Positions 2 through 38,497 of a DNA stretch of 64,000 bases are shown here, piece after piece. Position 1 is the stretch's first letter. Every line of letters starts with the position of its first letter. Origin of the DNA: Flavobacterium haoranii. Lineage in GTDB: Bacteria; Bacteroidota; Bacteroidia; Flavobacteriales; Flavobacteriaceae. The position numbers and the translations under genes were made by a program. The notes beneath the pieces were generated by a model, which saw nothing but the letters and a program-made list of their open reading frames with translations, made no database searches and was not told the origin of the DNA. The stretch is from NCBI RefSeq assembly GCF_009363055.1, contig NZ_CP045292.1:248001-312000 (forward strand), written 5' to 3'.

Positions 2-736
2 AATTTAATGGCTTCTTATGGTTATGCTATCCAAATTTATTGCGACTTTTCAGGATATTCCGATATGGCAATTGGTTTAGCTTTATTAATGGGTTTTACT
101 TTACCTCCCAATTTTTTAACGCCTTATAAATCGGCTTCAATTACCGAGTTTTGGAGAAGATGGCATATTTCCTTATCGAGTTGGTTACGCGATTACTTAT
201 ACATTTCAATGGGTGGAAATCGCAAAGGGAAAATTAGAACTTATTTCAATTTATTCATGACAATGTTATTAGGTGGATTATGGCATGGAGCCAATTGGAA
301 ATTTGTTTTTTGGGGCGTTTTACACGGTTTAGCTTTAGCTGTTGAACGCTTTTTTCAAACAAGAATTAAATTGCCGAAAAATGCACTTATTAAAGGAATT
401 CAAATATTTTTAACCTTTCACTTCGTTGTTTTTTGTTGGTTATTTTTCCGTGCTAAAGATTTTGAAACCGTTTTTGTAATGTTACATAATATTTCAAATA
501 TTAAATGGAATTGGAACCAAATTCAAACGATAATATTAGGATACAAAAATGTATTTTTATTGATGTTGTTCGGATATATTTGGCATTTTATACCAAGTAA
601 GTTTACTCGTTTAAATGAAAATTACTTTGGAAAGTTATCTTGGGTTATACAAGCTATAATCTTAGGTTTTGTATTTTGGATTGTTTATGCAACAGCTGCC
701 GAAGGAACACAACCGTTTATTTACTTTCAGTTTTAG
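2..736 (+). CDS. MBOAT family O-acyltransferase, C-terminal part
   Basis: The reading frame is open at the left edge, so the 5' part of the gene lies outside the window; at least 244 residues are visible. The sequence is typical of the AlgI/DltB-like membrane-bound O-acyltransferase family, which transfers acyl (often acetyl) groups to exported polysaccharides at the cytoplasmic membrane. Visible features, counted from the first Met at base 8, are the YCDFSGYSDMAIG block (about residues 11-23), the FWRRWHISLSSWLRDYLY block (49-66), and the GGLWHGANW motif whose His93 is the conserved family histidine. Several hydrophobic membrane segments follow. The substrate cannot be told from this fragment. 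Confidence 0.88.
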   Translation, partial: NLMASYGYAIQIYCDFSGYSDMAIGLALLMGFTLPPNFLTPYKSASITEFWRRWHISLSSWLRDYLYISMGGNRKGKIRTYFNLFMTMLLGGLWHGANWKFVFWGVLHGLALAVERFFQTRIKLPKNALIKGIQIFLTFHFVVFCWLFFRAKDFETVFVMLHNISNIKWNWNQIQTIILGYKNVFLLMLFGYIWHFIPSKFTRLNENYFGKLSWVIQAIILGFVFWIVYATAAEGTQPFIYFQF

Positions 737-779
737 TAACTAAAGTTACATTATGTACTTGTAGGTATAATTATCTTTG
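735..779 (+). promoter_or_regulatory. Crp/Fnr-type operator plus -7 box upstream of the di-heme lipoprotein gene
   Basis: A perfect 14-bp inverted repeat, GTAAC-TAAA-GTTAC, lies at 736-749 with its centre at 742.5. A Bacteroidetes -7 element, TATCTTTG (consensus TAnnTTTG), lies at 772-779. The centre is 36.5 bp before the last base of the -7 box, the same distance as at three other promoters in this window. No TTTG -33 element is visible, as expected for an activator-dependent promoter. Confidence 0.7.
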
Positions 780-1772
780 AAAAAAAGATTTATAGTGTAT
801 AAGTTTTCGATATTTTCAGTTTTTGTGTTTTTTTTTATTTCTTGTAACTCAAAGCAAGAATCTACTTTACAAGATGTAACTCAATTTAATTACAATCCTT
901 TTGAAGCAAAAGAGTTAATGGAAAAACATTGCTATTTATGTCATAGTCCAATTGCAGATGAAATGGAAGGAAGAATTGCTCCGCCTATGGTTGCCATAAA
1001 AGCAAGATATATTGATAAAGAAGGCTATAATAGAGAAGAATTTATTAAGTATGTTTCAGAATTTATAGAAAATCCAACAGAAGATAGAGCACTATTATAC
1101 GGTGCCGTTAAACGTTTTCAGGTAATGCCAAAACAAACTTTTCCCGATAGTGCCGTTCTTAAGATAGCGGCCTATATGTTTGATTATAAAATTGAAGAAC
1201 CAACTTGGTTCAAAGAACATTGGCAAGGACATGGAAACGATAATTGGGAACAATCAGGTAAAGAATTTGTTTCCAAAGAAAAAGAAAAAACCTTTGCTGA
1301 TATTGGTTTAGAATATGCTTTAGGAACCAAAAAAGTGTTAGGCAAAAACTTAATGGGAACCATTCAAAAAGAAGGAACTGAAAAAGCATTGGCGTTTTGC
1401 AATCATGAAGCGATACCTTTAACAGATAGCATGTCAGTTCATTACAATGCTAAAATTAAACGAGTTTCAGATAAAAATAGAAATCCAAATAATAGGGCAA
1501 ATGAAGAAGAACTAATCTACATTGAGCAATTCAAAAAAGATTTAGCGGAGAAAAAAGAGGTTAAGCCGATTGTAGTTGAGGGAGCAGAGCAAGTACATTT
1601 TTACTATCCAATTGAGACTAACACGATGTGTTTACAATGTCATGGAAAATCTGAAAATATCAAGCCTGAAGTTTCAAAAAAAATAAAAGAATTGTATCCA
1701 AATGATTTAGCTGTTGGTTATGGTGAAAACGAAGTAAGAGGAATTTGGAGTATTGTATTTGATAAAAAATAA
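777..1772 (+). CDS. Di-heme c-type cytochrome lipoprotein with DUF3365 domain
   Basis: Predicted exported lipoprotein: a basic start, a hydrophobic stretch and a lipobox ending in Cys23 (FISC). Two heme c attachment motifs are visible: CYLCH at residues 52-56 and CLQCH at 285-289. The C-terminal half (from about residue 170) matches the DUF3365/Tll0287-like heme domain, with the CNHEA and RNPNNRAN stretches. It is probably a periplasmic electron carrier or heme-based redox sensor. It is the first gene of a tight five-gene cluster. The TTG start used here overlaps the predicted -7 promoter box; if that promoter is real, translation more likely starts at the in-frame GTG at 795, which still leaves a signal peptide. 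Confidence 0.82.
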   Translation: MKKRFIVYKFSIFSVFVFFFISCNSKQESTLQDVTQFNYNPFEAKELMEKHCYLCHSPIADEMEGRIAPPMVAIKARYIDKEGYNREEFIKYVSEFIENPTEDRALLYGAVKRFQVMPKQTFPDSAVLKIAAYMFDYKIEEPTWFKEHWQGHGNDNWEQSGKEFVSKEKEKTFADIGLEYALGTKKVLGKNLMGTIQKEGTEKALAFCNHEAIPLTDSMSVHYNAKIKRVSDKNRNPNNRANEEELIYIEQFKKDLAEKKEVKPIVVEGAEQVHFYYPIETNTMCLQCHGKSENIKPEVSKKIKELYPNDLAVGYGENEVRGIWSIVFDKK

Positions 1773-1773
1773 T

Positions 1774-1974
1774 ATGAAAAAGAAAGCATATATTATTACA
1801 GGAATAGGTGTTGTTGTTGGTTTAATTGCGGGTTATGCATATTACTATTATGTAGGTTGTGCATCGGGAACATGTGCCATTACATCGAAACCTTTAAATA
1901 GTACACTTTATGGTGGTTTAATGGGAGGCTTATTGTTTAATATGTTGGTTACTTCTCCCAAAAAAGAAAGATAA
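1774..1974 (+). CDS. DUF6132 family small membrane protein
   Basis: A 66-residue protein with an N-terminal membrane segment (ITGIGVVVGLIAGYAYYYYV), a VGCASGTCAITSKP stretch with two cysteines spaced CxxxxC, and a second hydrophobic segment. This arrangement matches the Bacteroidetes DUF6132 family, of unknown function. The ATG at 1774 is one base after the upstream stop codon; an upstream in-frame TTG would overlap that gene and is less likely. The paired cysteines and the neighbouring thioredoxin and heme protein suggest a redox role, which is inference. Confidence 0.75.
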   Translation: MKKKAYIITGIGVVVGLIAGYAYYYYVGCASGTCAITSKPLNSTLYGGLMGGLLFNMLVTSPKKER

Positions 1975-2577
1975 ATGATGAAAGAATTTTGGAATAATAG
2001 ATATGCCGAAAATGAATACGCATACGGAGTTGAACCCAATCAATTTTTAAAAGAAAATTTACATTTACTAACTAAAGGCAAAATTTTATTTGTTGCTGAA
2101 GGAGAAGGACGAAACGCAGTATTTGCAGCTCAAAATGGATATGATGTTTATGCTTTTGATTATAGCGAATCGGCTAAAGATAAAGCACTACGATTGGCAA
2201 AAGAAAAAAAAGTTACTATAAATTACAATGTTTTTGATGTATTACAATGTAGTTATCCAAACGACTTTTTTGATGCAGTAGTTTTTATTTTTGCTCATTT
2301 TCCTTCTGAAATTAGAAAAAAAGCACATCAACGTATACAATCTTTCTTGAAACCAAATGGAAAAATTTTATTTGAAGCGTTTACAAAAGAACAATTAAAT
2401 TATGAATCAGGTGGTCCAAAAGAGATTACTATGCTATTTTCTGAAAAAGAAATAAAAGATGAGTTTAGTGAAGTTTCATTTGATTTTATAAACACAGAAA
2501 TTATCAAGTTAAATGAAGGTCCGTATCATCAAGGTAAAGGAGCTGTAATTCGATTTTTAGCTACAAAAAGAAATTAA
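1975..2577 (+). CDS. Class I SAM-dependent methyltransferase (TehB/thiopurine-type)
   Basis: A 200-residue methyltransferase. It opens with FWNNRYAENEYAYGVEPNQF, typical of TehB- and thiopurine-type enzymes. The SAM-binding motif I is ILFVAEGEGRNAVFAA, followed by the acidic motif II YAFDYS and the post-motif region DVLQCSYPNDFFDAVVFIFAHF. It starts at the base after the upstream stop (ATGATG, two possible starts). Such enzymes often methylate thiols, selenium or tellurium species. The location between DUF6132 and thioredoxin genes fits handling of reactive sulfur or chalcogen compounds, but the substrate is not shown. Confidence 0.8.
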   Translation: MMKEFWNNRYAENEYAYGVEPNQFLKENLHLLTKGKILFVAEGEGRNAVFAAQNGYDVYAFDYSESAKDKALRLAKEKKVTINYNVFDVLQCSYPNDFFDAVVFIFAHFPSEIRKKAHQRIQSFLKPNGKILFEAFTKEQLNYESGGPKEITMLFSEKEIKDEFSEVSFDFINTEIIKLNEGPYHQGKGAVIRFLATKRN

Positions 2578-2778
2578 ATGAAAAATATAAATTGGAAGAA
2601 GTTACTCTTTACAAATTGGCACATTATGCGTTTTGTTCGATTGGTTTTGGCAATGGGAATAAGTCTTCATGCTTATAAAAGTGGTGAAAGTTTCTTTTAT
2701 TTATTTGCGTTATATTTTTTAATACAAACAATTTTTGATTTTGGATGTCATCAAGGAAGTTGTTCCATAAAAAAGTAA
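2578..2778 (+). CDS. Small DUF2892/rhodanese-associated-type membrane protein
   Basis: A 66-residue protein that begins directly after the upstream stop. It has the pattern NWHIMRFVRLVLAMGISLHA, then a second hydrophobic segment, then a C-terminal Cys pair (GCHQGSC). This resembles small Bacteroidetes membrane proteins found next to rhodanese and thioredoxin genes, in which the C-terminal cysteines may carry or pass on sulfur or redox equivalents. The family assignment is by pattern only. Confidence 0.6.
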   Translation: MKNINWKKLLFTNWHIMRFVRLVLAMGISLHAYKSGESFFYLFALYFLIQTIFDFGCHQGSCSIKK

Positions 2779-2779
2779 A

Positions 2780-3085
2780 ATGATTATGGATAATGCACTA
2801 CAAAAAATCATTAATAATGAAATACCAACATTAGTTGAATTCATAAACTCAAATTGTGAGCCATGTGCCATGATTGAGCCTACATTACAACAAGTTAAAA
2901 ATTTAATAGGCAAACGTTTAAGTATTTTTGTAGTAAATATCGATGACGTTCCTATTGTAGCTGATGAGTTTTCAATTTCAAGCGCGCCGATGTTAGCATT
3001 GTTCCAGAGTGGAGATATGGTTTGGAAAACTCCAAACGTATTATCAAAACAAGAAATTATAGAAAAAGTGCTCAATTCAATTTAA
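2780..3085 (+). CDS. Thioredoxin family protein
   Basis: A 101-residue thioredoxin-fold protein with no signal peptide, so it should act in the cytoplasm. The active site is CEPC at residues 26-29 (canonical CGPC), and the cis-proline loop appears as SAPML. The strand pattern (VEFINSNCEPCAMIEP, IFVVNIDD, LALFQSGDMVW) is classical. It is the last gene of the cluster beginning with the di-heme lipoprotein and starts two bases after the upstream stop. It probably reduces a protein disulfide or sulfur carrier made by its neighbours. An alternative start is the ATG at 2786. Confidence 0.85.
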   Translation: MIMDNALQKIINNEIPTLVEFINSNCEPCAMIEPTLQQVKNLIGKRLSIFVVNIDDVPIVADEFSISSAPMLALFQSGDMVWKTPNVLSKQEIIEKVLNSI

Positions 3086-3101
3086 TTTTTATCTTTACAA
3101 C

Positions 3102-3412
3102 TTGAAATTTAAAATTCACATATTGCTTTTTTATTTAGTTGTACTTACAGTATTACCTTCAGCTAGAGCTTTAAAAGTTCAATTTGGAGGTGAGTGTAAA
3201 ATGTCTTGTCAAAAAGTGAAGATTCTGAATGTGAAAAGGGCAAATTTATCATGAGTTTAAATTTTAGTCCTGTTCAGTTTGTTAAAGAGATTATTATTTA
3301 TCCTACAGTGTATTTTATTCCATTAAAGGAAAAAACTAAAACAATTTATAGATTTTTTTTAGTTTCTAATTACTTTTCAAGTATTTGGCATCCTCCAAAG
3401 TTTTTGTTGTAA
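3102..3412 (+). pseudogene. Small exported protein, frameshifted (likely sequencing error)
   Basis: From the TTG at 3102 the frame encodes an N-terminal signal peptide (KIHILLFYLVVLTVLPSARA) followed by VQFGGECKMSCQK. A better continuation, SEDSECEKGKFIMSLNFSPV and onward, is in another frame and ends at 3412. Adding one A to the A5 run at 3211-3215 joins the two into a protein of about 103 residues with at least three cysteines. A TATCTTTA sequence at 3090-3097 is one base off the -7 consensus. I do not recognise the family. Confidence 0.5.
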
Positions 3413-3447
3413 TCCTGTTTTTTTTAATAAAATTTAATTTACAACAA

Positions 3448-5046
3448 ATGAAAAAAATAATTTTTTTGTTTGCGAATTTTCTGTTTTTAATTTCGCAAGC
3501 GCAAAGCTCATTTCCATTTGATGTAGTCTTAACGCCTATAAATGTAACTGGTTTGCCAGGACTGCATTCATATGCTTTTGCTCAACATAACGGGAAATGG
3601 TTAATAATAGGTGGAAGAAAAGATGGTATTCACGCAAGGCAACCATTCAATGCTTTCCCAGAAAATCAAAATAATACCGATATTTATGTGGTTGATGTGG
3701 TAAATAATCAATTATGGTCCGCATCAGTTAATTCATTGCCTGTAGGTTTAAAAGAACAATTACAGTCAACAAATATGAATTTTTACCAAGATGATGATAC
3801 TTTGTATATAATTGGTGGTTATGCATTTTCTACTTCTGCAAATGATCATATTTCTCATAATAAATTGACTGCAATTGATGTGGTTGGATTAATGAGTGCT
3901 ATTGAAAATGGAACTTCTATAACTTCTTTTTTTAAGCAAATTTCTAGCTCAAATTTTGCTATAACTGGAGGACAGTTAGGGAAAATTGGTAATGAGTTTT
4001 ATTTAGTAGGCGGACATGAATTTACAGGAAGATATAATCCTATGAATGGGCCTTCTTTTACACAAACTTATTCTAGTGCAATAAGAAAATTTGAAATTGA
4101 TAATTCTGGAGCGAACCCTATTGTTTCTAATTATACTGAAATTCTAGATGCAGTTCATTTACATCGAAGAGATTATAACTTAGTGCCTCAAGTATTTCCT
4201 AATGGAGAATTGGGATATACAATCTCATCAGGTGTTTTCCAAATTAGTGCCGATTTACCTTTTTTGTATCCTGTAGATATTAAAGCTAGCGGATATTTTC
4301 CGCAAACACAATTTAACCAATATTTGAGCAATTATCATAGCGGTAAGGTCGGACTTTACGATGCTAATTCAAACCAAATGCATAGTTTGTTTTTTGGAGG
4401 AATGAGTCAATATTATTATCAAAATGGAAGTTTAGTTCAAGATAATACAGTTCCTTTTGTTAAAACTATAAGTCGTGTTACTCGATTAGCTAATGGTGAT
4501 TTAGAAGAATATCAATTTCCAGTTGAAATGCCAAATTTAAAAGGCGCTGGAGCCGAATTTATTCCTAATGTAAATTTACCTCGTTATGCTAACGAAGTAA
4601 TTCAGTTGTCGAATATTTTGAGTTCCGAATTTGTAATTGGACATTTATTTGGTGGAATTTTAAGTACTTCACCAACAGCTTTTACAGATAATCAAACGGG
4701 TTTAACAAGTGCCGATTCTTCTATTTATGAAGTAAAATTGATATATAATCCAACATTGTCTACTCAAAGTATTGATGGAAGTAATCCTTTTACTTTTAAT
4801 GTTTTTCCAAATCCAACAGATGGAGATAATATTCAGGTAAAATTTACGGTACCTTATCAAGGAAAAGTAGAATATTTAATTTCATCAATGAATGGAAAAA
4901 TTTTATCTGAAGGCGATATTTTGGATTACAAAATTGGTGAAAACACTATGAGTTTTAATTTAGAATCACCAAAAGAAAAAATGGTAATTCTAACCTTTAT
5001 CTTTGATCAAAAATATTATGTTTCAAAGAAAGTCATAAAAAAATAA
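3448..5046 (+). CDS. Kelch-type beta-propeller protein with T9SS type A sorting domain
   Basis: A 532-residue exported protein. The signal peptide is MKKIIFLFANFLFLISQAQS, supporting the start at 3448 rather than an in-frame start 63 bases upstream. The body has repeated kelch-like blades, for example KWLIIGGRKDG, DTLYIIGGYAF, EFYLVGGHEF and SLFFGGM. The last 80 residues (FNVFPNPTDGDNIQVKF ... YYVSKKVIKK) form a Por-type type IX secretion C-terminal sorting domain, so the protein should be moved across the outer membrane and either attached to the cell surface or released. Its ligand is unknown. It shows that the organism is a Bacteroidota member with a type IX secretion system. Confidence 0.85.
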   Translation: MKKIIFLFANFLFLISQAQSSFPFDVVLTPINVTGLPGLHSYAFAQHNGKWLIIGGRKDGIHARQPFNAFPENQNNTDIYVVDVVNNQLWSASVNSLPVGLKEQLQSTNMNFYQDDDTLYIIGGYAFSTSANDHISHNKLTAIDVVGLMSAIENGTSITSFFKQISSSNFAITGGQLGKIGNEFYLVGGHEFTGRYNPMNGPSFTQTYSSAIRKFEIDNSGANPIVSNYTEILDAVHLHRRDYNLVPQVFPNGELGYTISSGVFQISADLPFLYPVDIKASGYFPQTQFNQYLSNYHSGKVGLYDANSNQMHSLFFGGMSQYYYQNGSLVQDNTVPFVKTISRVTRLANGDLEEYQFPVEMPNLKGAGAEFIPNVNLPRYANEVIQLSNILSSEFVIGHLFGGILSTSPTAFTDNQTGLTSADSSIYEVKLIYNPTLSTQSIDGSNPFTFNVFPNPTDGDNIQVKFTVPYQGKVEYLISSMNGKILSEGDILDYKIGENTMSFNLESPKEKMVILTFIFDQKYYVSKKVIKK

Positions 5047-5124
5047 TAAAATTATATACGAAAATCAAAATATGTATATATTTGTTAATATAGTTAAAAA
5101 CAATAAAATTTAAAAAATCTAACA

Positions 5125-5382
5125 ATGAAAAAAATAGTTTCAATGGTTGCTTTAGCAGCTTTCGTATTTTCAATGAGTGTTAATGCTCAAGAGCCAAAAC
5201 AAGCAAAAAAAGATAAATCTAAAACAGAGAAATCTTGTTGTGCTGATAAAGCTTCTGCAGAAAAAAAATCATGTGGATCTGAAGCAAAAGCTGGTGGATG
5301 TTGTTCTGCAAAAAAAATGGATGAAAAAAATCTTAATAAATTGATTTTCAAAAGCTCCCAATTTGGGAGCTTTTTTTTGTAA
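5125..5382 (+). CDS. Small secreted Cys/Lys-rich protein, C-terminus probably misread
   Basis: An N-terminal signal peptide (MKKIVSMVALAAFVFSMSVN, then AQ) is followed by a Lys-rich mature region with repeated cysteines (SCCADK, KSCGSE, GGCCSAKK), suggesting periplasmic metal or thiol binding. As written, the frame runs through the rho-independent terminator at 5351-5378, giving an odd tail ending in SSQFGSFFL. One extra A in the A7 run at 5324-5330 would end the protein as MDEKKS with a stop at about 5334-5336, just before the terminator. I think that is the true end. Exact function unknown. Confidence 0.7.
   Translation: MKKIVSMVALAAFVFSMSVNAQEPKQAKKDKSKTEKSCCADKASAEKKSCGSEAKAGGCCSAKKMDEKNLNKLIFKSSQFGSFFL
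5351..5378 (+). terminator. Rho-independent terminator
   Basis: A perfect 10-bp stem (AAAGCTCCCA / TGGGAGCTTT) with a 3-base loop, followed by a run of T to 5378. It ends the Cys-rich protein transcript and directly abuts the cydA operator. Confidence 0.88.
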
Positions 5383-5422
5383 TTATTGTTACAATTATTT
5401 TAAAATTTAATAGCCAACTTTG
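5378..5422 (+). promoter_or_regulatory. Crp/Fnr-type operator plus -7 box of cydAB
   Basis: A perfect TGTAA-N6-TTACA palindrome lies at 5378-5393 with its centre at 5385.5. A near-consensus -7 box, CAACTTTG, lies at 5415-5422 (one mismatch to TAnnTTTG). The spacing is again 36.5 bp from the operator centre to the end of the -7 box. The cydA start codon follows 17 bases later. Confidence 0.72.
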
Positions 5423-5438
5423 CAGAAATATTTAATTT

Positions 5439-6770
5439 ATGGAAGAAATGCTATTTTACGATAGAATGCAATTTGCATTTACTATCACATTTCACTACTT
5501 ATTTCCACAGCTAACAATGGGTTTATCTTTAATGATTGTTTATTTTAAGTGGAAATTTCTAAAAACAAATCTGGAACAATATAATGATGCTGCTAAGTTT
5601 TGGATGAAAATTTTTGCCTTGAATTTTGCCATGGGTGTAGTTACAGGGATTCCAATGGAATTTCAGTTTGGAACCAATTGGGCAAAGTTTTCGGAATTAA
5701 CAGGAGGAATCATCGGGCAAACTTTAGCCATGGAAGGTATGTTTTCCTTTTTCTTAGAATCGTCTTTTTTAGGTTTGTTTTTATTTGGTGAAAAATTATT
5801 AGGCCATAAACTTCATTTTTTAACCGGATTTTTAGTTTTCTTAGGTTCGTGGATGAGCGGATTTTTAATCATTGCAACGCATTCTTGGATGCAAAATCCT
5901 GTAGGTTATGAAATTTTAGAAAACGTAAAATTTGTACTCAATAATTTTAGCGCCCTCTTTACAAACCCTTGGCTTTGGCCTTCATATTTACACAATCAAG
6001 CAGCTTCACTTGTTACAAGTTCTTTTGTAGTAGCTGGAATTGGTGCATTTTATATTTTAAACAAAAAGAATATCGAGTTTGGTAAGCTTTTTCTAAAAAC
6101 AGGTGTTGTTTTCGGATTGATTTCTTCTGTTATAGTAGCTATGCCAACAGGTGATTTGTTAGCTAAAAATGTAGTAAAATATCAGCCTGTTACTTTTGCA
6201 GCTATGGAAGGAATTTTTCATACCGAAAAAGGTGGTTCTGAAATTGTATTAATTGGTCAACCCGATGTTCAAAATAAAAAATTAGACAACAAAATTGCTG
6301 TTCCTAATATCTTGAGCTTTTTAACGTATGGAAATTGGGACCAAGAAGTTAAAGGTTTAAATGAATTTCCGGAAGAGAATTATCCAACCAATATTTCGGG
6401 TTTGTATTACGGATATCATATTATGGTTGGTTTAGGAACTATCTTCATCGGAATGATGTTTTTAGCTTTGATACAATTAGTTCGTAAAAAGTTATTTGAA
6501 ACCAATTGGTTATTGTGGGCGTTTATGTTTGCCATGCCTTTTCCATATATTGCAAATACCACCGGATGGTACACTGCCGAATTAGGTCGCCAACCTTGGC
6601 TAGTCTACAATTTATTACGAACTTCTGAAGGAGCTTCGCCAACAGTTTCTTCAGGAAACACATTGTTTACATTCTTAGGTTTTATTGGTTTATACCTTTT
6701 ATTGGGAATGTTGTTTTTAATTTTAGTTGGAAAAATAATTAGAAAAGGTCCGCAGCCTCAAACACACTAA
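5439..6770 (+). CDS. cydA: Cytochrome bd quinol oxidase subunit I
   Basis: A 443-residue polytopic membrane protein, the heme-bearing subunit of cytochrome bd, which oxidises quinol and reduces oxygen to water with high affinity. His19 in TFHYLFPQLTMG matches the conserved N-terminal heme ligand. The GRQPW signature (ELGRQPWLVYN) near the C-terminus and the MEFQFGTNWAKFSE stretch are diagnostic. At 443 residues it has a short Q-loop. It is followed by cydB after a 3-base gap. A Crp/Fnr-type site upstream suggests activation by low oxygen, sulfide or nitrosative signals. Confidence 0.95.
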   Translation: MEEMLFYDRMQFAFTITFHYLFPQLTMGLSLMIVYFKWKFLKTNLEQYNDAAKFWMKIFALNFAMGVVTGIPMEFQFGTNWAKFSELTGGIIGQTLAMEGMFSFFLESSFLGLFLFGEKLLGHKLHFLTGFLVFLGSWMSGFLIIATHSWMQNPVGYEILENVKFVLNNFSALFTNPWLWPSYLHNQAASLVTSSFVVAGIGAFYILNKKNIEFGKLFLKTGVVFGLISSVIVAMPTGDLLAKNVVKYQPVTFAAMEGIFHTEKGGSEIVLIGQPDVQNKKLDNKIAVPNILSFLTYGNWDQEVKGLNEFPEENYPTNISGLYYGYHIMVGLGTIFIGMMFLALIQLVRKKLFETNWLLWAFMFAMPFPYIANTTGWYTAELGRQPWLVYNLLRTSEGASPTVSSGNTLFTFLGFIGLYLLLGMLFLILVGKIIRKGPQPQTH

Positions 6771-6773
6771 GTC

Positions 6774-7850
6774 ATGGAATATTTTTGGTATATTGTACTA
6801 GTTGCTATGTTAGCCGTTTATGTCGTTTTAGACGGTTACGATTTTGGAGCAGGTATCATTCACTTATTTTTTGCAAAAGAAGAAAAAGATAAAAAGGCAA
6901 TAACAAATGCAATTGGTCCATTTTGGGATGCTAATGAAGTTTGGTTGATTGCAGCCGGAGGCGTTTTGTTTTTTGCTTTTCCCACTTTATATGCGTCGTC
7001 TTTTAGCGGATTTTATCTGCCTTTAATGATGGTATTATGGTTGCTCATTTTTAGAGCAGTCGGATTGGAATTGCGCGGACAAATTCATCATCCATTGTGG
7101 GAAGCGATTTGGGATAAAGCTTTTGGTATTGCAAGTTTATTGTTGGCTTTATTTTTTGGAGCCGCTCTTGGGAATGTCGTTCGCGGTGTAAATTTAGGAA
7201 TGGTTCAAAATGGAATTTCTACTCATGAACCTCATTATTTCTTCTTGCCATTATGGAACGAATCTTTTAGTCCACAGGCAGAACATCAGGGAATTATAGA
7301 TTGGTTTACATTAATGTTAGGAATTATTGCTGTTGTTGCCTTGACAATTCATGGAGCAAACTGGATTATTTTTAAAACTAATTCCGATTTAAATTCAAAG
7401 CTAAAAAATGTAGTTTTTAAACTAAATTTTGTTTTGCTTGCTTTAGTAATTTTGTCATTATTTATATGGCATATAATTGAACCTCAACCTTTTCATAATT
7501 TTATTAAATATCCATTTCTTTGGGTTTTACCAATAATTACTTTTATTGGAATATTTGGACTTTTTAAAGTAAGAACTTTCAAAAAAGATGGTTATGGTTT
7601 TATATTTTCAAGTTTGTTTTTGGTGGGAGGATTAGCTTCAACAGTTGCCTCAATATTCCCCAAATTATTACCATCGACTAATGCTATTAATCCATCATTA
7701 ACCGTTGAGAATGTCGCAACTCATGAATATGGACTGTCTGTGGGTATGAGTTGGTTTTTTATTGCTGTAGTTTTAGTAGCTATTTATTTCACCATACAAT
7801 ATCGTGTTTTTAAAGGGAAAATGGATGATATTGGTTACGGAGAACATTAA
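6774..7850 (+). CDS. cydB: Cytochrome bd quinol oxidase subunit II
   Basis: A 358-residue polytopic membrane protein, partner of CydA. Family signatures include YVVLDGYDFGAGI near the N-terminus, GPFWDANEVWLIAAGG, and RAVGLELRG. It starts three bases after the cydA stop and is followed by a terminator, so cydAB is a two-gene operon. I see no CydX-like small frame after it. The bd oxidase resists inhibition by sulfide and nitric oxide, which fits the neighbouring SQR-like gene sharing the same operator type. Confidence 0.95.
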   Translation: MEYFWYIVLVAMLAVYVVLDGYDFGAGIIHLFFAKEEKDKKAITNAIGPFWDANEVWLIAAGGVLFFAFPTLYASSFSGFYLPLMMVLWLLIFRAVGLELRGQIHHPLWEAIWDKAFGIASLLLALFFGAALGNVVRGVNLGMVQNGISTHEPHYFFLPLWNESFSPQAEHQGIIDWFTLMLGIIAVVALTIHGANWIIFKTNSDLNSKLKNVVFKLNFVLLALVILSLFIWHIIEPQPFHNFIKYPFLWVLPIITFIGIFGLFKVRTFKKDGYGFIFSSLFLVGGLASTVASIFPKLLPSTNAINPSLTVENVATHEYGLSVGMSWFFIAVVLVAIYFTIQYRVFKGKMDDIGYGEH

Positions 7851-7857
7851 AATATTT

Positions 7858-7887
7858 AAAGCATCATTTTTAAATGGTGCTTTTTTA
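7858..7887 (+). terminator. Rho-independent terminator of cydAB
   Basis: Stem AAAGCATCATTT / AAATGGTGCTTT (one G-T pair) followed by a T run. It lies 8 bases after the cydB stop and just before the operator of the next gene. Confidence 0.85.
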
Positions 7888-7889
7888 TT

Positions 7890-7934
7890 TGTAACAAAAG
7901 TAGCTGTCGTTCAATTACAATACTAATACTTTTG
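7890..7934 (+). promoter_or_regulatory. Degenerate Crp/Fnr-type operator plus -7 box of the SQR-like gene
   Basis: TGTAAC-AAAA-GTAGCT at 7890-7905 has a perfect left half-site and a weak right half (three mismatches). The centre is 7897.5. A consensus -7 box, TACTTTTG, lies at 7927-7934. The 36.5-bp spacing equals that at the other three sites, which is the main reason to accept it despite the weak half. Confidence 0.55.
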
Positions 7935-7953
7935 ATTAATTAAACGAATCAAA

Positions 7954-9414
7954 ATGTCAAAAATAGTAATATTAGGAGCTGGAATTGCAGGACATACTGC
8001 TGCTTCACATTTAAGAAGAAAACTTTCGGAAGAACATGAGGTTTTGGTAGTTTCTCCTAACAGAAATTACCAATGGGTACCCTCAAATATTTGGGTAGGA
8101 ATAGGAAGAATGAAACGCGAAGATGTAATTTTTCCACTTGAACCATTATATAAAAGAAAAGGAATAGGATATAAGCAAGCTAAAGCAATTTCATTTCATC
8201 CTGAAGGCGATATTTCAGAATTAAAACCTTATATTTTAGTTGAAGGAGTTTTTGGTGATAACTTAGGGAAGCAAGAAAAAGTTACCTATGATTATCTAAT
8301 CAACGCAACTGGGCCAAAATTAGCTTTCGATTTAACAGAAGGATTATTGCCAGCTACAAATAAAGTGTATTCCGTATGTACTTATGATCATGCAGAGCAT
8401 GCATCGGAAGCTTTACATAAGTTAATTGATACTTTAAAAAAATCTGATCATAAAGTTAAAATATTAATTGGTACTGGTCACCCTAAAGCAACTTGTCAAG
8501 GTGCCGCATTTGAATATATCCTAAACGTGGAAAAAGAATTGCAAAAATTTGGTGTTCGCGACAAAGCAGAAATTACTTGGATTTCAAACGAATACGAATT
8601 AGGAGATTTTGGTATGGATGGTATGTTGATGGAATATAATGGATTCAACATGAAATCTAAAGATATGGTCGAAATGATTTTTGAAGATCGTGGAATTAAA
8701 TGGATTTTAGAAGCAGGTGTAACAAAAGTTGAAGATGGATTGGTTCATTATGAAAACTTAGATGGTGAATTTAAAACTGAAAGTTTCGATTTCGGAATGT
8801 TAATTCCTGCATTTTCAGGACACGGTTTTCAAGCTTATGATAAAGAAGGACAGAATATTACCGATAAATTATTTAAAGGTTTTATGATTGTAGATGCTGA
8901 TTATACATCAAAGCCTTATGAAGAATGGACGGTTCAAGATTGGCCAGAAACCTATCAAAACCCTTCATATAAAAATATTTTTGCACCAGGAATTGCTTTT
9001 GCACCACCACATTCTATTTCTAAACCTAGAAAAAGTAAGAATGGAACAGAAATTTTTCCTTCGCCACCGCGTACAGGAATGCCTTCAGGAATTACAGCAA
9101 AATTAGTAGCTGATAATATTATAGATTCAATCAAGTTAGGTAAAGAATCATTACATCATAAAGGGTCTTTAGGAAACATGGGGGCAGCTTGTATTGCTTC
9201 TGCTGGTTACGGAATTACACAAGGTAGCGGTGTTTCAATCACAACTTATCCTATTGTTCCAGATTATAAAAAATACCCAAAAACTCAAGGACGCGATATT
9301 AATAAAACCTTTGGCGATATAGGTTTAGCAGGACATTGGGTAAAATTAGCATTACACTATGCTTTTATCTGGAAAGCAAAAATGAAGCCATTTTGGTGGT
9401 TAATTCCTGAATAA
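7954..9414 (+). CDS. Sulfide:quinone oxidoreductase-like flavoprotein
   Basis: A 486-residue FAD-dependent oxidoreductase of the SQR/flavocytochrome c sulfide dehydrogenase superfamily. The N-terminal FAD-binding motif is IVILGAGIAGHTAA, with the second strand LINATGPKL. Three cysteines sit where SQR enzymes carry theirs: Cys142 (VYSVCTYDHAEHA), Cys181 in the TCQGAAFEY signature, and Cys413 (NMGAACIASAGYG). The C-terminus is amphipathic and aromatic (MKPFWWLIPE), suiting attachment to the membrane. It would oxidise sulfide to sulfane sulfur and pass electrons to quinone, then to the cytochrome bd encoded just upstream. Substrate is inferred from the cysteines and context. Confidence 0.78.
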   Translation: MSKIVILGAGIAGHTAASHLRRKLSEEHEVLVVSPNRNYQWVPSNIWVGIGRMKREDVIFPLEPLYKRKGIGYKQAKAISFHPEGDISELKPYILVEGVFGDNLGKQEKVTYDYLINATGPKLAFDLTEGLLPATNKVYSVCTYDHAEHASEALHKLIDTLKKSDHKVKILIGTGHPKATCQGAAFEYILNVEKELQKFGVRDKAEITWISNEYELGDFGMDGMLMEYNGFNMKSKDMVEMIFEDRGIKWILEAGVTKVEDGLVHYENLDGEFKTESFDFGMLIPAFSGHGFQAYDKEGQNITDKLFKGFMIVDADYTSKPYEEWTVQDWPETYQNPSYKNIFAPGIAFAPPHSISKPRKSKNGTEIFPSPPRTGMPSGITAKLVADNIIDSIKLGKESLHHKGSLGNMGAACIASAGYGITQGSGVSITTYPIVPDYKKYPKTQGRDINKTFGDIGLAGHWVKLALHYAFIWKAKMKPFWWLIPE

Positions 9415-9427
9415 AAAAAATAAAATT

Positions 9428-9556
9428 ATGACACAAAGAATATCAAAAGCACAAAAGCGTAAAATGCAGAATCCACTTTTGCAATTGTTTAAATTCTTCT
9501 ATTTAAATGTTAGAATTTTAAAAATTGTTGCGGGCGGTCATGGAGGAACGCGATAA
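9428..9556 (+). CDS. 42-residue basic small protein downstream of the SQR-like gene
   Basis: A short open frame with an ATG 14 bases after the SQR-like stop. The predicted protein is basic at the N-terminus (TQRISKAQKRKMQNP), has an amphipathic or hydrophobic middle (LLQLFKFFYLNVRILKIVAG) and ends in GGHGGTR. Composition and position in the same transcription unit, before a terminator, support a real gene. It may be a membrane-associated partner of the flavoprotein. I do not recognise a family. Confidence 0.55.
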   Translation: MTQRISKAQKRKMQNPLLQLFKFFYLNVRILKIVAGGHGGTR

Positions 9557-9603
9557 TAACACATCGTCATTGTTGATGATTGTTTTTAGTTTTATTGGTT
9601 AGT

Positions 9604-9638
9604 ACGAAAGCATCTTTTTAGGTGCTTTCGTCTTTTTT
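9604..9638 (+). terminator. Rho-independent terminator
   Basis: Stem ACGAAAGCA / TGCTTTCGT around a short loop, followed by a T run to 9638. It closes the SQR-like transcription unit. Confidence 0.85.
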
Positions 9639-9704
9639 GTAATAATGGTTACAATTAAGTGTAACTCTTGTTACTGAGTAAGGAAAATTGTCAACCTAAA
9701 TTTG
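9638..9704 (+). promoter_or_regulatory. Tandem Crp/Fnr-type operators plus -7 box of the RND efflux operon
   Basis: Two operators lie in phase: TGTAA-N6-TTACA at 9638-9653 (centre 9645.5) and TGTAA-N6-TTACT at 9660-9675 (centre 9667.5), exactly 22 bp apart. A consensus -7 box, TAAATTTG, lies at 9697-9704. The proximal site is centred 36.5 bp from the end of the -7 box. The half-sites between the two also form GTTACA-ATTAAG-TGTAAC. Confidence 0.75.
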
Positions 9705-9720
9705 CTAAAAAATAATAACG

Positions 9721-11031
9721 ATGAACAAAGTAAAATTAAGTCTTGCAATTATTATCTCAACAGGATTAAGTGTAGTAGCTCAAGATACTTTATCAGTCTC
9801 TAAGAGCGATGTACTTGAAAAAGTGAATGATAAAAATTTGCAAATAAAAATTGCAGAAAAAGCATTCAAATCTGCTCAAGCTGATTATCGTCAGTCGAAT
9901 GCTTTGTTTATGCCAAACATTTCGGCGTCACACACAGCAATTACAACTACAAACCCTTTAATGGCTTTTGGTTCAAAATTAAATCAGGAAATTTTAACAA
10001 TGAATGATTTTAATCCAGCTCTGCTAAATGACCCTGAACATGTTGAAAATTTTGCTACGATGATTGAAGTGCAACAACCGTTAATCAATTTAGATGGTTT
10101 GTACGAAAGAAAAGCAGCAAAAGCAAAGATGGATGCAATGAGTTTGCAAACGGAACGCACAAAAGAGTATTTACAGTTAGAAGTTTCAAAAGCGTATATG
10201 CAATTACAATTAGCGTACAAAGCAGTTGGTGTTTTAACAAAAGCTAATGAAACAGCTCAAGGAAACTTAAAAATGGTAGAAAACTACTTCAAAAATGGAA
10301 TGCTTCAAAAAACAGATTTATTAGATGTACAAGTTAGAGTTAATGAAGTAGCGAATCAATTACAATATGCAAAAAGTAATGTAAAAAATGCTTCAGATTA
10401 CTTAGGGTTTCTTTTGAATGAAGATATGAAAGAGAAGGTTTTTAAACCTACAGAAACTTTAGAAAATGAAATTCAAGTTGAGGAAATGGTAGCAACTATT
10501 TCTGAAAACAGAAAAGATATTCAAGCGATGGATAAAGCAACAGAAGCGTACGGGAAAATGTTCCAATCTACAAAATTAGGTTTCCTACCAAGATTAAACG
10601 CCTTTGGGAATTACCAAATGTATGATGACAAATTATTCGGAACTTCTGCAAAAGGATATTTATTAGGTGCTCAATTATCATGGAACGTGTTTGATGGTTA
10701 TAAAAGCATTGGTAAAAACCAAAAAGCAAAAGCCGATTTCCAAAAAGCTGAATCCGAAGCCGAACAATATAAAAAACAAAGTCAGCTAGAATTGAACAAA
10801 ACCAATCGTCAATTAGCCGATGCTGAAAATAAAGTGAACTTATCAAAATTAGCATTCGAACAAGCACAAGAATCATACAGAATTCGTAAAAATAGATTCG
10901 AACAAGGTTTAGAAAAAACAACCGATTTATTAATGGCGGAAACCCAACAATCAAAAAAAGAATTAGAGTTTTTACAAGCTGTTTTCGAATATAATTTCAC
11001 TAAACAATACCAAAAATTTTTAACTAACTAA
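9721..11031 (+). CDS. TolC family outer membrane efflux protein
   Basis: A 436-residue outer membrane factor. It has a signal peptide (MNKVKLSLAIIISTGLSVVA, then Q) and the two repeated OEP domains with long coiled-coil helices, for example the stretch from SKAYMQLQLAYKAVGVLTKA and the C-terminal KTTDLLMAETQQSKKELEF. It would form the outer membrane channel for the RND pump encoded downstream. It is the first gene of a five-gene operon (tolC-type, membrane fusion, RND, PII-like, DUF2892) driven by the tandem operators upstream. Confidence 0.9.
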   Translation: MNKVKLSLAIIISTGLSVVAQDTLSVSKSDVLEKVNDKNLQIKIAEKAFKSAQADYRQSNALFMPNISASHTAITTTNPLMAFGSKLNQEILTMNDFNPALLNDPEHVENFATMIEVQQPLINLDGLYERKAAKAKMDAMSLQTERTKEYLQLEVSKAYMQLQLAYKAVGVLTKANETAQGNLKMVENYFKNGMLQKTDLLDVQVRVNEVANQLQYAKSNVKNASDYLGFLLNEDMKEKVFKPTETLENEIQVEEMVATISENRKDIQAMDKATEAYGKMFQSTKLGFLPRLNAFGNYQMYDDKLFGTSAKGYLLGAQLSWNVFDGYKSIGKNQKAKADFQKAESEAEQYKKQSQLELNKTNRQLADAENKVNLSKLAFEQAQESYRIRKNRFEQGLEKTTDLLMAETQQSKKELEFLQAVFEYNFTKQYQKFLTN

Positions 11032-11038
11032 ATGAGTT

Positions 11039-11065
11039 TGTCACATCGAGCGGAGTCAAGATGTT
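11039..11065. repeat. Short dispersed repeat (GAGCGGAGTC core)
   Basis: TGTCACATCGAGCGGAGTC followed by AAGATGTTT sits in the gap between the efflux tolC-type and fusion protein genes. It shares its core with the two copies inside prmC and the longer element before hisS. ACATC at one end and GATGT at the other are inverted. Confidence 0.8.
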
Positions 11066-11087
11066 TAAGACTAAAAATAATAGAAAT

Positions 11088-12170
11088 ATGAAAAAAACAA
11101 TCGCAATATTAATAGTAACTTCTACATTATTAATTTCTTGTGGAGGTGATAAAAGAGAAGAAGTAGCTACTTTACCAGCAATTGCAGTAAAAGTAGCTGG
11201 TATATCAGAAACAGACTCAAGTCCATACGTTTCAGCAAGTGGAAAAATCGAAGCAGAAAACAGTGCTAATTTAAGTACGCGTATGATGGGATTTGTTACA
11301 AAAGTAAATGTAAAAGTCGGACAAAAAGTTACAAAAGGACAATTATTAGTTTCGGTAAACAATACCGATTTACAAGCTAAAAAAGCACAAGTAGATGCTT
11401 CTATTATTCAAGCACAAGCTGCTTATAATAATGCGAAAAAAGATTATGATCGTTTCGTGAATTTATTTGCACAACAAAGTGCTTCGCAAAAAGAATTAGA
11501 CGATATGACGGCTCGCTACGAAATGGCTAAAGCTGGTTTAGAAGCTGCAAAACAAATGCGAAATGAAATCAATGCTCAGTTTGCCTATTCAAATATTTCA
11601 GCGCCTTTTAATGGAGTTGTAACAAATACTTTCGTAAAAGAAGGTGATATGGCAAATCCAGGAATGCCTTTAGTAAGCGTTGAAGGTGCCAAAAAATTGC
11701 AAGTAACAGCGATGGTTTCTGAAAGTGATATTGCTTCAATTACTAACGGAATGAAAGTAAAAGTTTTAGTAAAATCATTAGGAACTGAAGTAAATGGAAC
11801 AGTAAGCGAAGTAAGTTTATCTGCTAAAAATACAGGCGGACAATATTTAGTAAAAATCGATTTAGATAAAACGGATGCTAAAATCTTATCAGGGATGTTT
11901 GTAAATGTTCAATTTCCAGTGGAAAAGAAAGCAAATGTTACTACATCAGATGTGGTTTTAGTTCCAGAAAGTGCATTAGTGAAACAAGGTCAGTTAACAG
12001 GGATTTACACGATTGGCGCAAATAATACAGCCATCTTACGTTGGTTGCGTTTAGGAAAGACTTTTGGAAACCAAGTAGAGGTATTGTCAGGTTTAAACAA
12101 TAAAGAACAATACATTGTTTCTGCTGAAGGTAAGTTATTCAATGGTGCTAAAATTCAATTAGCCAATTAA
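11088..12170 (+). CDS. RND efflux periplasmic adaptor (membrane fusion) lipoprotein
   Basis: A 360-residue HlyD-like adaptor. The lipobox LLISC near residue 20 predicts a lipoprotein held in the membrane. Domains in order are barrel-sandwich half one (GKIEAENSANLSTRMMGFVT), an alpha-helical hairpin (about residues 100-160), the second half (ISAPFNGVVTNTFVKEGDM), then beta-barrel and membrane-proximal domains. The start at 11088 is chosen because an upstream in-frame ATG lies inside the dispersed repeat. It links the RND pump to the outer membrane channel. Confidence 0.9.
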   Translation: MKKTIAILIVTSTLLISCGGDKREEVATLPAIAVKVAGISETDSSPYVSASGKIEAENSANLSTRMMGFVTKVNVKVGQKVTKGQLLVSVNNTDLQAKKAQVDASIIQAQAAYNNAKKDYDRFVNLFAQQSASQKELDDMTARYEMAKAGLEAAKQMRNEINAQFAYSNISAPFNGVVTNTFVKEGDMANPGMPLVSVEGAKKLQVTAMVSESDIASITNGMKVKVLVKSLGTEVNGTVSEVSLSAKNTGGQYLVKIDLDKTDAKILSGMFVNVQFPVEKKANVTTSDVVLVPESALVKQGQLTGIYTIGANNTAILRWLRLGKTFGNQVEVLSGLNNKEQYIVSAEGKLFNGAKIQLAN

Positions 12171-12236
12171 TCAATATGTCATTTAGCCAATTTTAATTGA
12201 CACATAGACAAATTGACAAATTAACACATTAAGATT

Positions 12237-15200
12237 ATGCAAGAAGGTATTTCAGGTAAAATAGCCAATTTTTTCATCAATTCGAAACTAACCATTTTAT
12301 TAATGGTAGCGTTGATGATTATTGGATCCTATAGTTCGTTCTTAATTCCAAGGGAAGAAGAACCACAAATTAACGTTCCTATGGCCGATGTTATGGTCAT
12401 GTATCCAGGAGCAAATCCAAGTGAAGTTGAAAGTAGAGTAGTTAAACCACTTGAGAAAATCATTGGAAACATCAAAGGAGTTGAACATATTCACAGTATG
12501 GCATTTAACGGCTATTCGATGATGGTAGTTCAATTCTATGTAGGTGAAAACAGCGAAGATTCGTATGTGAAATTATACGATGAGTTAATGAAACACCAAG
12601 ACATGTTTCCAGAAGGTGTAATGCAACCAATGGTTAAAACACGTTCTATTGACGATGTTCCTATGCTTGGTTTAACACTATGGAGTGAAAACTATGATGA
12701 TTTTCAATTACGTCAATTAGCAGAAGAAGTTACGAATGAAATTGAAAAAGTAAAAGATGTTGCCATTACAAAAGAAATTGGTGGTAGAACACGAGAGCTA
12801 AAAGTAGTTTTAGATAAAGATAAAATGGCTGAAAACGGTGTAGATGCATTGAGCATTATGCAAATGGTTAAAGCCAATAACGGAAGTTCACAATCAGGGT
12901 CTTTTGTGCAAAATGATCAAGAATATTTAGTTACTACGGGTAAGTTTTTAGCAAATAAAGAAGATGTTGAGAATTTAGTTGTAGGTGTGAACAAAAACAT
13001 GCCTGTTTATTTAAAACAAGTAGCGACTATTCAAGATGGACCACAAACTCCAAAGAATTATGTTTCTTTTGGATACGGAAAAGCTAATGAGAATTTCAAA
13101 TCTCACAATTCTGAATATCCAGCGGTAACCATTTCTGTTGCCAAAGTAAAAGGAGCCGATGCGATGAAGATTTCAGAGAAAATCTTAACGCATGTTGAAG
13201 AACTAAAGAAAAACTTAATTCCGTCTGATGTTCATGTAGAAATTACACGTAACTATGGAGAAACAGCATCACACAAAGTAGGTGAGTTGTTATTACACTT
13301 AGGTGTTGCCATTTTAGCAGTAACTGTTTTAGTAATGCTAGCTATGGGCTGGAGAGGCGGATTAGTGGTTTTCTTCTCCGTTCCGTTAACGTTTGCACTA
13401 ACGCTTTTCAGTTATTACATGTTAGGTTATACCTTAAATCGAATCACCCTTTTTGCCCTAGTATTCGTTGTTGGTATTGTCGTTGACGATAGTATTATCA
13501 TTGCCGAAAATATGCACAGGCACTTTAAAATGAAGCGCCTACCGTTTAAACAAGCAGCTATTTACGCTATTAATGAAGTAGGAAACCCTACAATTTTAGC
13601 AACGTTTACAGTAATCGCAGCAATTTTACCAATGGCTTTCGTAAGTGGTATGATGGGGCCTTATATGAGTCCGATGCCAATTGGAGCGTCAATCGCGATG
13701 ATGTTGTCTTTATTCGTAGCCTTAACAGTTACACCGTATTTAGGCTATCACTTGTTACAAGAAAAAGATGAGCAAGAACATAAAGAAGAACAAGGATTGG
13801 AAACTTCATGGATTTTCAAAATATATAAAAAGTTTGAAGAGCCATTATTGAATAGTTCAGCGAAGAGAAACGTAATGTTTGCCATTACAATCTTCTTATT
13901 ACTAGGTTCTGTTGCAATGTTCTTTACCAAATCGGTGGCGGTAAAAATGTTACCTTTTGATAATAAAAACGAATTCCAAGTGGTAATCGATATGCCAGAA
14001 GGAACAACTTTAGAAAGAACGGCTGCAGTTACAAAAGAAATTGCGCAATATCTTTCTACAGTTCCAGAAGTGGTAGATTATCAAAATTACATTGGAGCTT
14101 CTGCACCAATAACATTCAACGGTTTAGTGCGTCATTATGATATGCGTGGCGGAAGTAATATGGCTGATATTCAAGTGAATTTGTTACACAAAGAAGACAG
14201 AGATTTACAAAGTCATGACATAGCAAAATTAGTTCGTCCAGAGGTACAAAAAATTGCAAAGAAATATGGTGCCAATGTAAAAATTGTTGAAGTTCCGCCA
14301 GGACCACCAGTGTTGTCAACTTTGGTTGCTGAGGTTTACGGACCAGATTATAAACAACAAATTGAAGTGGCCAATCAAGTAAAAGGAATTCTTGAAAATA
14401 CTTCAGACGTCGTTGATATCGATTGGATGGTTGAAGCACCACAAGTTGAATACAAATTAGAAGTAGATAAAGAAAAAGCAATGCTAAACGGAATTGCACC
14501 ACAACAGGTAGTTGGAAATTTAACATATCTACTTCGTGAGATGCCAGTTTCAAATTTATATGATGAGCGTTCTGTTGATCCTGTTGGAATTGTATTAGCA
14601 TTAGACGATTCTGAAAAAACATCATTACAAGATATTCAAAATTTAAAAATTAAAGGAAGTCAAGGTAATGTTGTTCCTGTAAGTGATTTGGTAAAAGTAA
14701 AAGTTGATACGTTACAAAATGCAATTTATCGCAAAGACCAAAAAAGAGTAGTATACGTTTTAGCCGATATGGCTGGAGCTTTGGAAAGTCCAGTATATGC
14801 AATCTTAGGAATGAACGAGAAATTACAAGAAATGAAATTACCTAAAGGTTATGCTGTAAATGAAATTTACATGGGTCAACCTGATTCTGAAAATGATTTT
14901 ACAGTAAAATGGGATGGAGAATGGCAAATTACTTTAGAAGTTTTCCGTGATTTAGGAGCTGCTTTCTTAGTCGTAATTATAGTAATTTATATGTTGATTG
15001 TTGGTTGGTTTCAAAACTTTAAAACGCCAATTGTAATGATGGTTGCTATTCCACTTTCACTGGTTGGGATTGTATTGGGTCACTGGTTATTAGGAGCATT
15101 CTTCACCGCAACTTCTTTTATCGGAATGATTGCTTTAGCGGGAGTAATGGTTCGAAACTCCGTCTTGTTAATCGACTTTATCGAGATTCGTTTAAATGAT

Positions 15201-15434: not shown

Positions 15435-15445
15435 AAATTAAGCAT

Positions 15446-15751
15446 ATGAAATTAGTAGTTATTACAGCTATAGCTGAGTTTGACAAAGAAGTTAAAAAAA
15501 TGCTTAAAGAAGCAAAAGTTTTGTCCTATTCGTATCGTGATGTAAAAGGATATCGAGATAGTACAGAAGATGCAGTTGAAACCAATTGGTTTGGTTCCGA
15601 AATGAACGAAACAGAATCAGTAGTTTTCTTTGCATTTGTTCAAAAACAAAATGTAGAAGCTATTTTCGATTCAGTAGAAAAATTTAATTTAAAACAAGAA
15701 ACAATTTCACATATTCACGCAGCAGTTTTATCTGTTGAAAAACACAATTAA
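15446..15751 (+). CDS. PII-like / DUF3240-type small protein linked to RND efflux
   Basis: A 101-residue protein with an alternating beta-alpha-beta pattern (KLVVITAIAEF, VKGYRDSTEDAVETNW, ESVVFFAFVQKQNVEAIFDS, ISHIHAAVLSVEK) like the ferredoxin-fold PII and DUF3240 proteins found at the end of efflux operons. It starts 11 bases after the RND gene and probably binds or senses the transported compound or modulates the pump. The family call is by fold pattern and context only. Confidence 0.6.
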   Translation: MKLVVITAIAEFDKEVKKMLKEAKVLSYSYRDVKGYRDSTEDAVETNWFGSEMNETESVVFFAFVQKQNVEAIFDSVEKFNLKQETISHIHAAVLSVEKHN

Positions 15752-38442: not shown

Positions 38443-38471
38443 AAACGCTCAACTTTAGTTGGGCGTTTTTT
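38443..38471 (+). terminator. Rho-independent terminator after the second aconitase
   Basis: Stem AAACGCTCAAC / GTTGGGCGTTT (one G-T pair) with a TTTA loop, followed by T residues. Confidence 0.85.
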
Positions 38472-38497
38472 GTACATTTAATTTTAATTTTAGAAAA

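Follow-up and report, generated by a model that had tools for sequence, protein, structure and literature searches.

Four promoters in a 64,000-nucleotide stretch of the Flavobacterium haoranii genome (contig NZ_CP045292.1, positions 248,001 to 312,000; hereafter the window) carry a TGTAAC-N4-GTTACA-type palindrome at one exact distance from the -7 box. They precede the genes of a di-heme lipoprotein, the cytochrome bd oxidase CydAB, a sulfide:quinone oxidoreductase (SQR)-like flavoprotein and an RND efflux operon (Table 1). We consider it probable that the four sites are operators of one dimeric Crp/Fnr activator, here called R4, acting from the class II position at -41.5, and that its regulon clears sulfide and reactive sulfur in response to a signal that is probably persulfide or polysulfide. 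Computation lends strong support to the regulon, to the operator phase and to the part played by an R4-family Crp/Fnr regulator. From the position of the sites we infer activation rather than repression, and reactive sulfur is the signal best suggested by the gene content and the cysteines of R4.

In the mechanism we propose, an R4 dimer would bind the palindrome at -41.5 of sigma-A TAnnTTTG promoters, adjoining position -33, and would act in class II fashion by recruiting RNA polymerase. The regulon would remove sulfide and reactive sulfur through SQR, persulfide dioxygenase, rhodaneses, sulfur transporters, the RND pump and the di-heme lipoprotein. The bd oxidase, an enzyme that tolerates sulfide, would join the regulon in some species. 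Persulfide or polysulfide would probably act on Cys77 and Cys83/84 of the regulator.

The phase between operator and box is real and not a product of chance. When both strands of the window were scanned with a 50-column operator-plus-box matrix, built from 86 unique sites in 80 other loci, the four sites took the first four places (18.7 to 34.6 bits). The fifth-best score, 9.8 bits, belonged to the cydAB palindrome in reverse reading, in agreement with the preliminary description of this DNA, which had found no such site at the other TAnnTTTG promoters it checked in the window; its four palindrome centres and four box ends also proved exact. Sixty first-order Markov sequences of 64 kb gave a mean best score of 5.3 bits and a maximum of 17.7, only slightly under the two weaker sites (19.4 and 18.7 bits). 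The palindromes of the di-heme, cydAB and RND promoters match the consensus at 11 of 12 positions and that of the SQR promoter at 9; since 63 places in the window reach at least 9 of 12, the SQR site is credible only by virtue of its phase.

The whole genome (2.87 Mb, one contig) was searched for GTAA-N6-TTAC followed 7-37 bases downstream by ANNTTTG. Nine of the 34 matches have the 36.5-bp spacing from palindrome centre to box end, and 25 are spread over 30 other spacings. The total is close to the 32 matches of a reversed-pattern control, so that the phase alone stands out; palindrome counts by themselves are weak evidence (331 places per strand with at most two mismatches, 244 in the reversed control). 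Among the matches listed for 121 Flavobacterium genomes, at least 69 of 150 are at the exact spacing, or 66 of 146 without F. haoranii. A set of 80 named loci around relatives of R4 gave 87 of 128 matches in phase (61 spacings), with a mean of 0.7 at each other spacing, four matches one base short, and a reversed control of three matches with none in phase. These loci and the genus genomes share some contigs, so that the two sets overlap. The 45 loci from named genera other than Flavobacterium have 63 of 97 matches in phase, against 0.6 per other spacing.

In F. psychrophilum the sigma-A TAnnTTTG box has been mapped at -12 to -5 (PMC9723704). With the box so placed, the operator centre would fall at -41.5 in fixed phase, which is a class II site, and the spacing peak in F. 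haoranii, in its genus and in other genera upholds the class II Crp/Fnr position suggested earlier. G stands at -33 in 50 of the 86 in-phase sites, and no strongly conserved column of the matrix lies between it and the box. Many boxes fit TAnnTTTG in full. The four window promoters all keep the spacing first described for them, although the cydAB box (CAACTTTG) is not a full TAnnTTTG. A second palindrome 22 bp upstream, absent from the preliminary description (centre 9645.5 in the window), occurs in the RND promoter of F. haoranii, in those of five close relatives and in one other locus, 7 of 180 unique in-phase promoters in all.

The genes behind the sites point to sulfur metabolism. Three of the nine in-phase sites of F. 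haoranii are window promoters; others precede a thioredoxin and a rhodanese gene (200856), a further rhodanese gene (1586057), and an aldehyde-dehydrogenase-like gene (1900542) and a LysE-type exporter gene (1985246) that may be targets. The matches at 1001270 and 2268285 lie antisense inside coding sequence and are probably due to chance. In-phase sites of relatives precede rhodaneses, persulfide-dioxygenase-like genes, the di-heme lipoprotein, the RND operon and R4 itself, as well as YeeE-, DsrE-, YeiH- and DUF2892-like genes (named by inspection). The 80 R4 loci hold 91 in-phase sites, located in 59 loci. According to labels read from one member per cluster, the genes behind them are 22 persulfide-dioxygenase-like, 21 TauE, 10 RND outer membrane factor, 5 SQR, 5 DUF983-like, 3 di-heme, 3 DUF2892-like, 3 SulP-like, 2 YeeE-like, 1 CydA and 1 R4; the rest are rare or doubtful, and four sites have no reading frame within range. 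Together, the persulfide-dioxygenase-like, TauE and SQR genes account for 48 of the 91, over half. Operators ahead of SQR, persulfide dioxygenase and rhodanese genes, by which we would recognize a persulfide regulon, are thus present in phase. The idea of a single regulator joining four promoters survives as a Crp/Fnr-type regulon, but this regulon extends beyond the four, centres on sulfur genes and has cydAB as a variable member.

Four proteins of the genome exceed the HTH_Crp_2 cut-off. R4 scores 45.9 bits with PF00027 (cut-off 27.5) and 32.4 bits with PF13545 (cut-off 27), and these matches, with a fold search made for a 90%-identical orthologue, make its membership of the Crp/Fnr family sure. 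It falls far short of the CRP equivalog (55.4 bits, cut-off 266), and its presumed operator is TGTAAC, not TGTGA; its score with the NtcA equivalog, NCBIfam TIGR03697, is likewise far too low (46.8 bits, cut-off 244.95). It has no cysteine before residue 77, unlike FNR with its N-terminal [4Fe-4S] cysteines. We regard R4 as the likely regulator of the four promoters because a Crp/Fnr gene adjoins such sites in relatives and because its recognition helix and the operator vary together at part of the promoters. Some match to R4 occurs in 110 of the 121 genus genomes; 45, F. haoranii included, have one of at least 54% identity and near full length, and many others carry a relative near 42%. Among the matches listed, genomes with an R4 of at least 54% hold 54 in-phase and 33 other matches, and the remaining genomes 15 and 48.

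All 34 aligned R4 relatives have Cys77, and at least 90% of them retain Cys83 and Cys84; Cys77 is also present without exception in a broader set of 16. We take the loop that bears these cysteines to correspond to the cyclic AMP (cAMP) phosphate-binding loop of CRP, with which an NtcA alignment agrees. An AlphaFold model of the 90%-identical orthologue has a mean pLDDT of 87.6, falling to 62-64 at residues 71-90, so that the cysteine geometry is not readable from it.

The recognition helix of R4 is mostly TSRVVISRLLK or TSRVVVSRLLK, and that of the 42% relatives TSREV[IV]SRLLK. In the RND promoter, base 4 of the left half-site follows the regulator: all 20 promoters with a Val regulator have A there, and all 10 with a Glu regulator have G. 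The Glu group includes G092, in which Val changed to Glu within the R4 clade; the Val group takes in G059, with a regulator from a third group, and G040, where a more distant Glu relative is present as well. In regulator loci, all 22 unique in-phase sites with a Glu regulator have G:C at base 4 of a half-site, as do 6 of the 99 with a Val regulator (33 of 33 and 6 of 125 before repeat removal, RND promoters included). These counts set aside four loci with both kinds of regulator and three repeat loci of the same regulators, and 17 regulators identical in sequence to another were removed from the final one. The four mixed loci (L283, L256, L268 and L313) each have a Val-helix and a Glu-helix relative of R4, and L283 and L256 contain in-phase sites of both kinds. 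According to PMC11253593, base pair 4 of the E. coli CRP operator is read by Glu181 and Arg185, a mode of reading with which the pairing of Glu and G:C fits.

Conservation at the orthologous promoters, which the preliminary description had asked about for all four, holds for RND, SQR and di-heme, but mostly not for cydAB. An in-phase site is present in 30 of 30 RND promoters read, with a palindrome match of 9 of 12 or better and a box match of 5 of 6 or better; these are 30 of 32 strong matches in 59 chosen genomes, 44 with R4 and 15 without, a non-random sample given that 13 of the 15 were picked for an in-phase site already seen. Both close SQR orthologues found among 30 genomes (92% and 79% identical) are in phase with palindromes of 10 of 12 and 12 of 12; two distant paralogues, whose boxes end in A, are in phase too; the SQR fragment in L143 was left out. 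All three full-length di-heme orthologues have the site, one with the box TATTTTTA, and a di-heme fragment in G104 has none in phase; this count leaves out a second partial match in G113 and a weak match in G115.

Several observations weigh against the proposed regulon as we read it. None of 11 CydA copies paired with a 42%-identical R4 relative (10 genomes and one of the two G083 copies) has an in-phase site; the Glu helix is seen for eight of them. Of the CydA copies with a Val-type R4, the other one in G083 has a 12 of 12 site (TGTAACAAGTGTTACA) with the box TACTTTTA, and that in G062 has no in-phase site. Distant CydA paralogues have the site in G061 and in an Aquimarina locus and lack it in G007, G044 and G072 (a 42-residue CydA fragment in G104 was left out). 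The cydAB operon is therefore a variable member of the regulon with a poorly conserved site, and we reject it as a conserved core target. In the F. haoranii genome, the 3.6 kb around R4 contain no exact-phase site, and the site ahead of the neighbouring metallo-beta-lactamase/rhodanese (persulfide-dioxygenase-like) gene, at 993069, is one base short of phase. Within the DNA of the 80 R4 loci, 21 loci have no strict site. Among the matches listed, 15 in-phase sites belong to genomes without a close R4, and other members of the family would use the same operator there. Eighteen rhodanese promoters of Glu genomes were read; of their 15 in-phase sites, 13 carry A:T at base 4 in both half-sites. 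The same holds for the di-heme promoter of G070, also a Glu genome. The helix rule is thus not general, and a strict code of one residue for one base is rejected. The tree has three independent helix changes; on average 2.6 of 3 pairs agree with the expected direction and none runs counter to it, numbers too few for significance. Lastly, what speaks for a sulfur signal is confined to gene content and the cysteines.

The nature of the signal is where another account has most room. R4 might sense a different redox signal or ligand, such as disulfide stress, nitric oxide, haem or the quinone state, the sulfur genes being part of the response. Neither the bd oxidase nor the di-heme protein nor the RND pump is strictly a sulfur gene, which favours this account; the predominance of persulfide-dioxygenase-like, TauE and SQR genes behind the sites and the recurrence of rhodaneses count against it, and we hold it possible but unlikely. 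R4 could also repress from -41.5 by blocking the -33 region until sulfur species release it, as most known persulfide sensors are repressors and many boxes fit TAnnTTTG fully. One exact phase across dozens of promoters is, however, what contact with polymerase would predict and not plain blocking, and the tandem -63.5 sites of some RND promoters suit an activator better, so that repression appears improbable.

Two other regulators of the genome were considered in place of R4, and both were rejected on helix and location. The FNR-like protein encoded at 604828 has an N-terminal C-x2-C and another cysteine, and cydAB is a classic target of the FNR family; if this oxygen sensor bound the sites, the common theme would be low oxygen. 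Its helix (TATESCIRLLSEF), however, has Glu in place of the Val of R4, and the sites cluster at R4 and the sulfur genes, which makes the FNR-like protein a very improbable regulator. In its locus (L061, genome 603328-606546) the gene adjoins a rhodanese-like gene and a gene for a heavy-metal P-type ATPase of the cytochrome-oxidase-assembly type, both named from their sequence. The Crp/Fnr gene inside the window (38459-39160, + strand) has the appeal of sharing contig and window with the sites, and its Crp/Fnr domains exceed the Pfam cut-offs. Yet its helix, TSRPTLNILIN, is unusual and lacks the second Arg, the matrix scan of the window found no in-phase site near it, and it adjoins two aconitase-type genes (by inspection). 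The sites flank relatives of R4, in a comparison made for R4 relatives and not for those of the window gene, and we find this candidate hardly credible.

Compared with known systems, the nearest promoter architecture would be that of the class II promoters of cyanobacterial NtcA. The NtcA box, GTA-N8-TAC, lies about 22 bases upstream of the -10 box, which is the operator-to-box geometry found here, and the alignment places Val at the same helix position in NtcA and R4; the TAnnTTTG box, the phylum and the genes differ. E. coli CRP and FNR at class II promoters share the fold, the domains and the centre at -41.5, but recognize TGTGA or TTGAT and not TGTAAC; R4 differs further in the cysteines of its cAMP-site loop and in working with a Bacteroidota sigma-A. 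The best match of R4 by sequence, and the best fold match of the orthologue's model, is EUBREC_1222 (PDB 3dv8), which has a cysteine in the same loop, although identity is 24% and the entry is titled merely a putative Crp/Fnr-family regulator. The persulfide regulons of SqrR/BigR, CstR and FisR have similar targets (SQR, persulfide dioxygenase, rhodanese and TauE-type genes), but their sensors belong to the ArsR, CsoR and sigma-54-activator families, not to Crp/Fnr.

There is, in our judgement, about an even chance that a Crp/Fnr lineage of the Flavobacteriaceae has converted the loop of the cAMP site to the sensing of persulfide through cysteines, commanding sulfide detoxification, respiration and efflux from -41.5, and that natural Val/Glu changes of its helix were accompanied by operators re-tuned in keeping with the base reading of CRP, at most but not all promoters. 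If true, Crp/Fnr would join the families of sulfur-sensing regulators. Among the literature titles and abstract beginnings listed we found no Crp/Fnr sulfur regulon in flavobacteria, in a search of one library that may miss the slash spelling 'Crp/Fnr'. To our knowledge, there are few worked examples of transcription activation at the unusual TAnnTTTG promoters of Bacteroidota, and the present case adds one whose geometry is exact, together with a candidate activator and a regulon that extends across many genera. It also offers natural variants for testing the joint change of helix and operator, where one group of promoters resists.

Table 1. Operators, promoter boxes and genes of the window, with the candidate regulator R4
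Feature	Position	Strand	Remarks
Operator	735..750	+	Centre 742.5, AGTAACTAAAGTTACA; upstream of di-heme lipoprotein gene; matrix 23.5 bits
-7 box	772..779	+	TATCTTTG; di-heme lipoprotein promoter
Di-heme lipoprotein	795..1772	+	Two CXXCH, Tll0287-like domain
Operator	5378..5393	+	Centre 5385.5, TGTAATTATTGTTACA; upstream of cydAB; matrix 18.7 bits
-7 box	5415..5422	+	CAACTTTG; cydAB promoter; incomplete TAnnTTTG
cydAB, cytochrome bd oxidase	5439..7850	+	cydA 5439-6770 (Pfam), cydB 6774-7850 (read from sequence)
Operator	7890..7905	+	Centre 7897.5, TGTAACAAAAGTAGCT; right half degenerate; upstream of SQR-like gene; matrix 19.4 bits
-7 box	7927..7934	+	TACTTTTG; SQR-like promoter
SQR-like flavoprotein	7954..9414	+	Matches solved SQR chain 3sz0, E 3e-38
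Second upstream operator	9638..9653	+	Centre 9645.5, 22 bp upstream of main RND operator (-63.5)
Operator	9660..9675	+	Centre 9667.5, TGTAACTCTTGTTACT; upstream of RND operon; matrix 34.6 bits
-7 box	9697..9704	+	TAAATTTG; RND operon promoter
RND efflux operon	9721..15751	+	Outer membrane factor 9721-11031, HlyD/CusB-type adaptor 11061-12170, RND pump 12237-15434, P-II-like 15446-15751
R4, Crp/Fnr protein	genome 991652-992281		Outside window, about 735 kb away; upstream of TauE-type exporter and metallo-beta-lactamase/rhodanese (persulfide-dioxygenase-like) genes

Some minor features of the window complete this description. The TTG listed as the start of the di-heme gene (777) falls within the promoter box, which makes the GTG at 795 a likelier start codon. 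Of the four operators, three start within or just after the T-run of what looks like the terminator hairpin of the upstream gene (5350-5380, 7860-7890 and 9605-9640, located by eye). The SQR-like flavoprotein scores under the cut-off of the NCBIfam type III SQR model. The small P-II-like protein encoded downstream of the RND pump gene reaches 20.6 bits with Pfam P-II, against a cut-off of 25. Further along, the reading frame of an ffh (SRP54)-like gene (16050-17389) is split into two open reading frames at an A-run; as ffh is expected to be essential, the break is likely a sequencing or assembly indel. A prfC-like (release factor 3) frame (18670-20264, - strand) is also split near an A-run, which suggests the same cause. 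The one-base offset of the site at 993069 could likewise be due to single-base errors.

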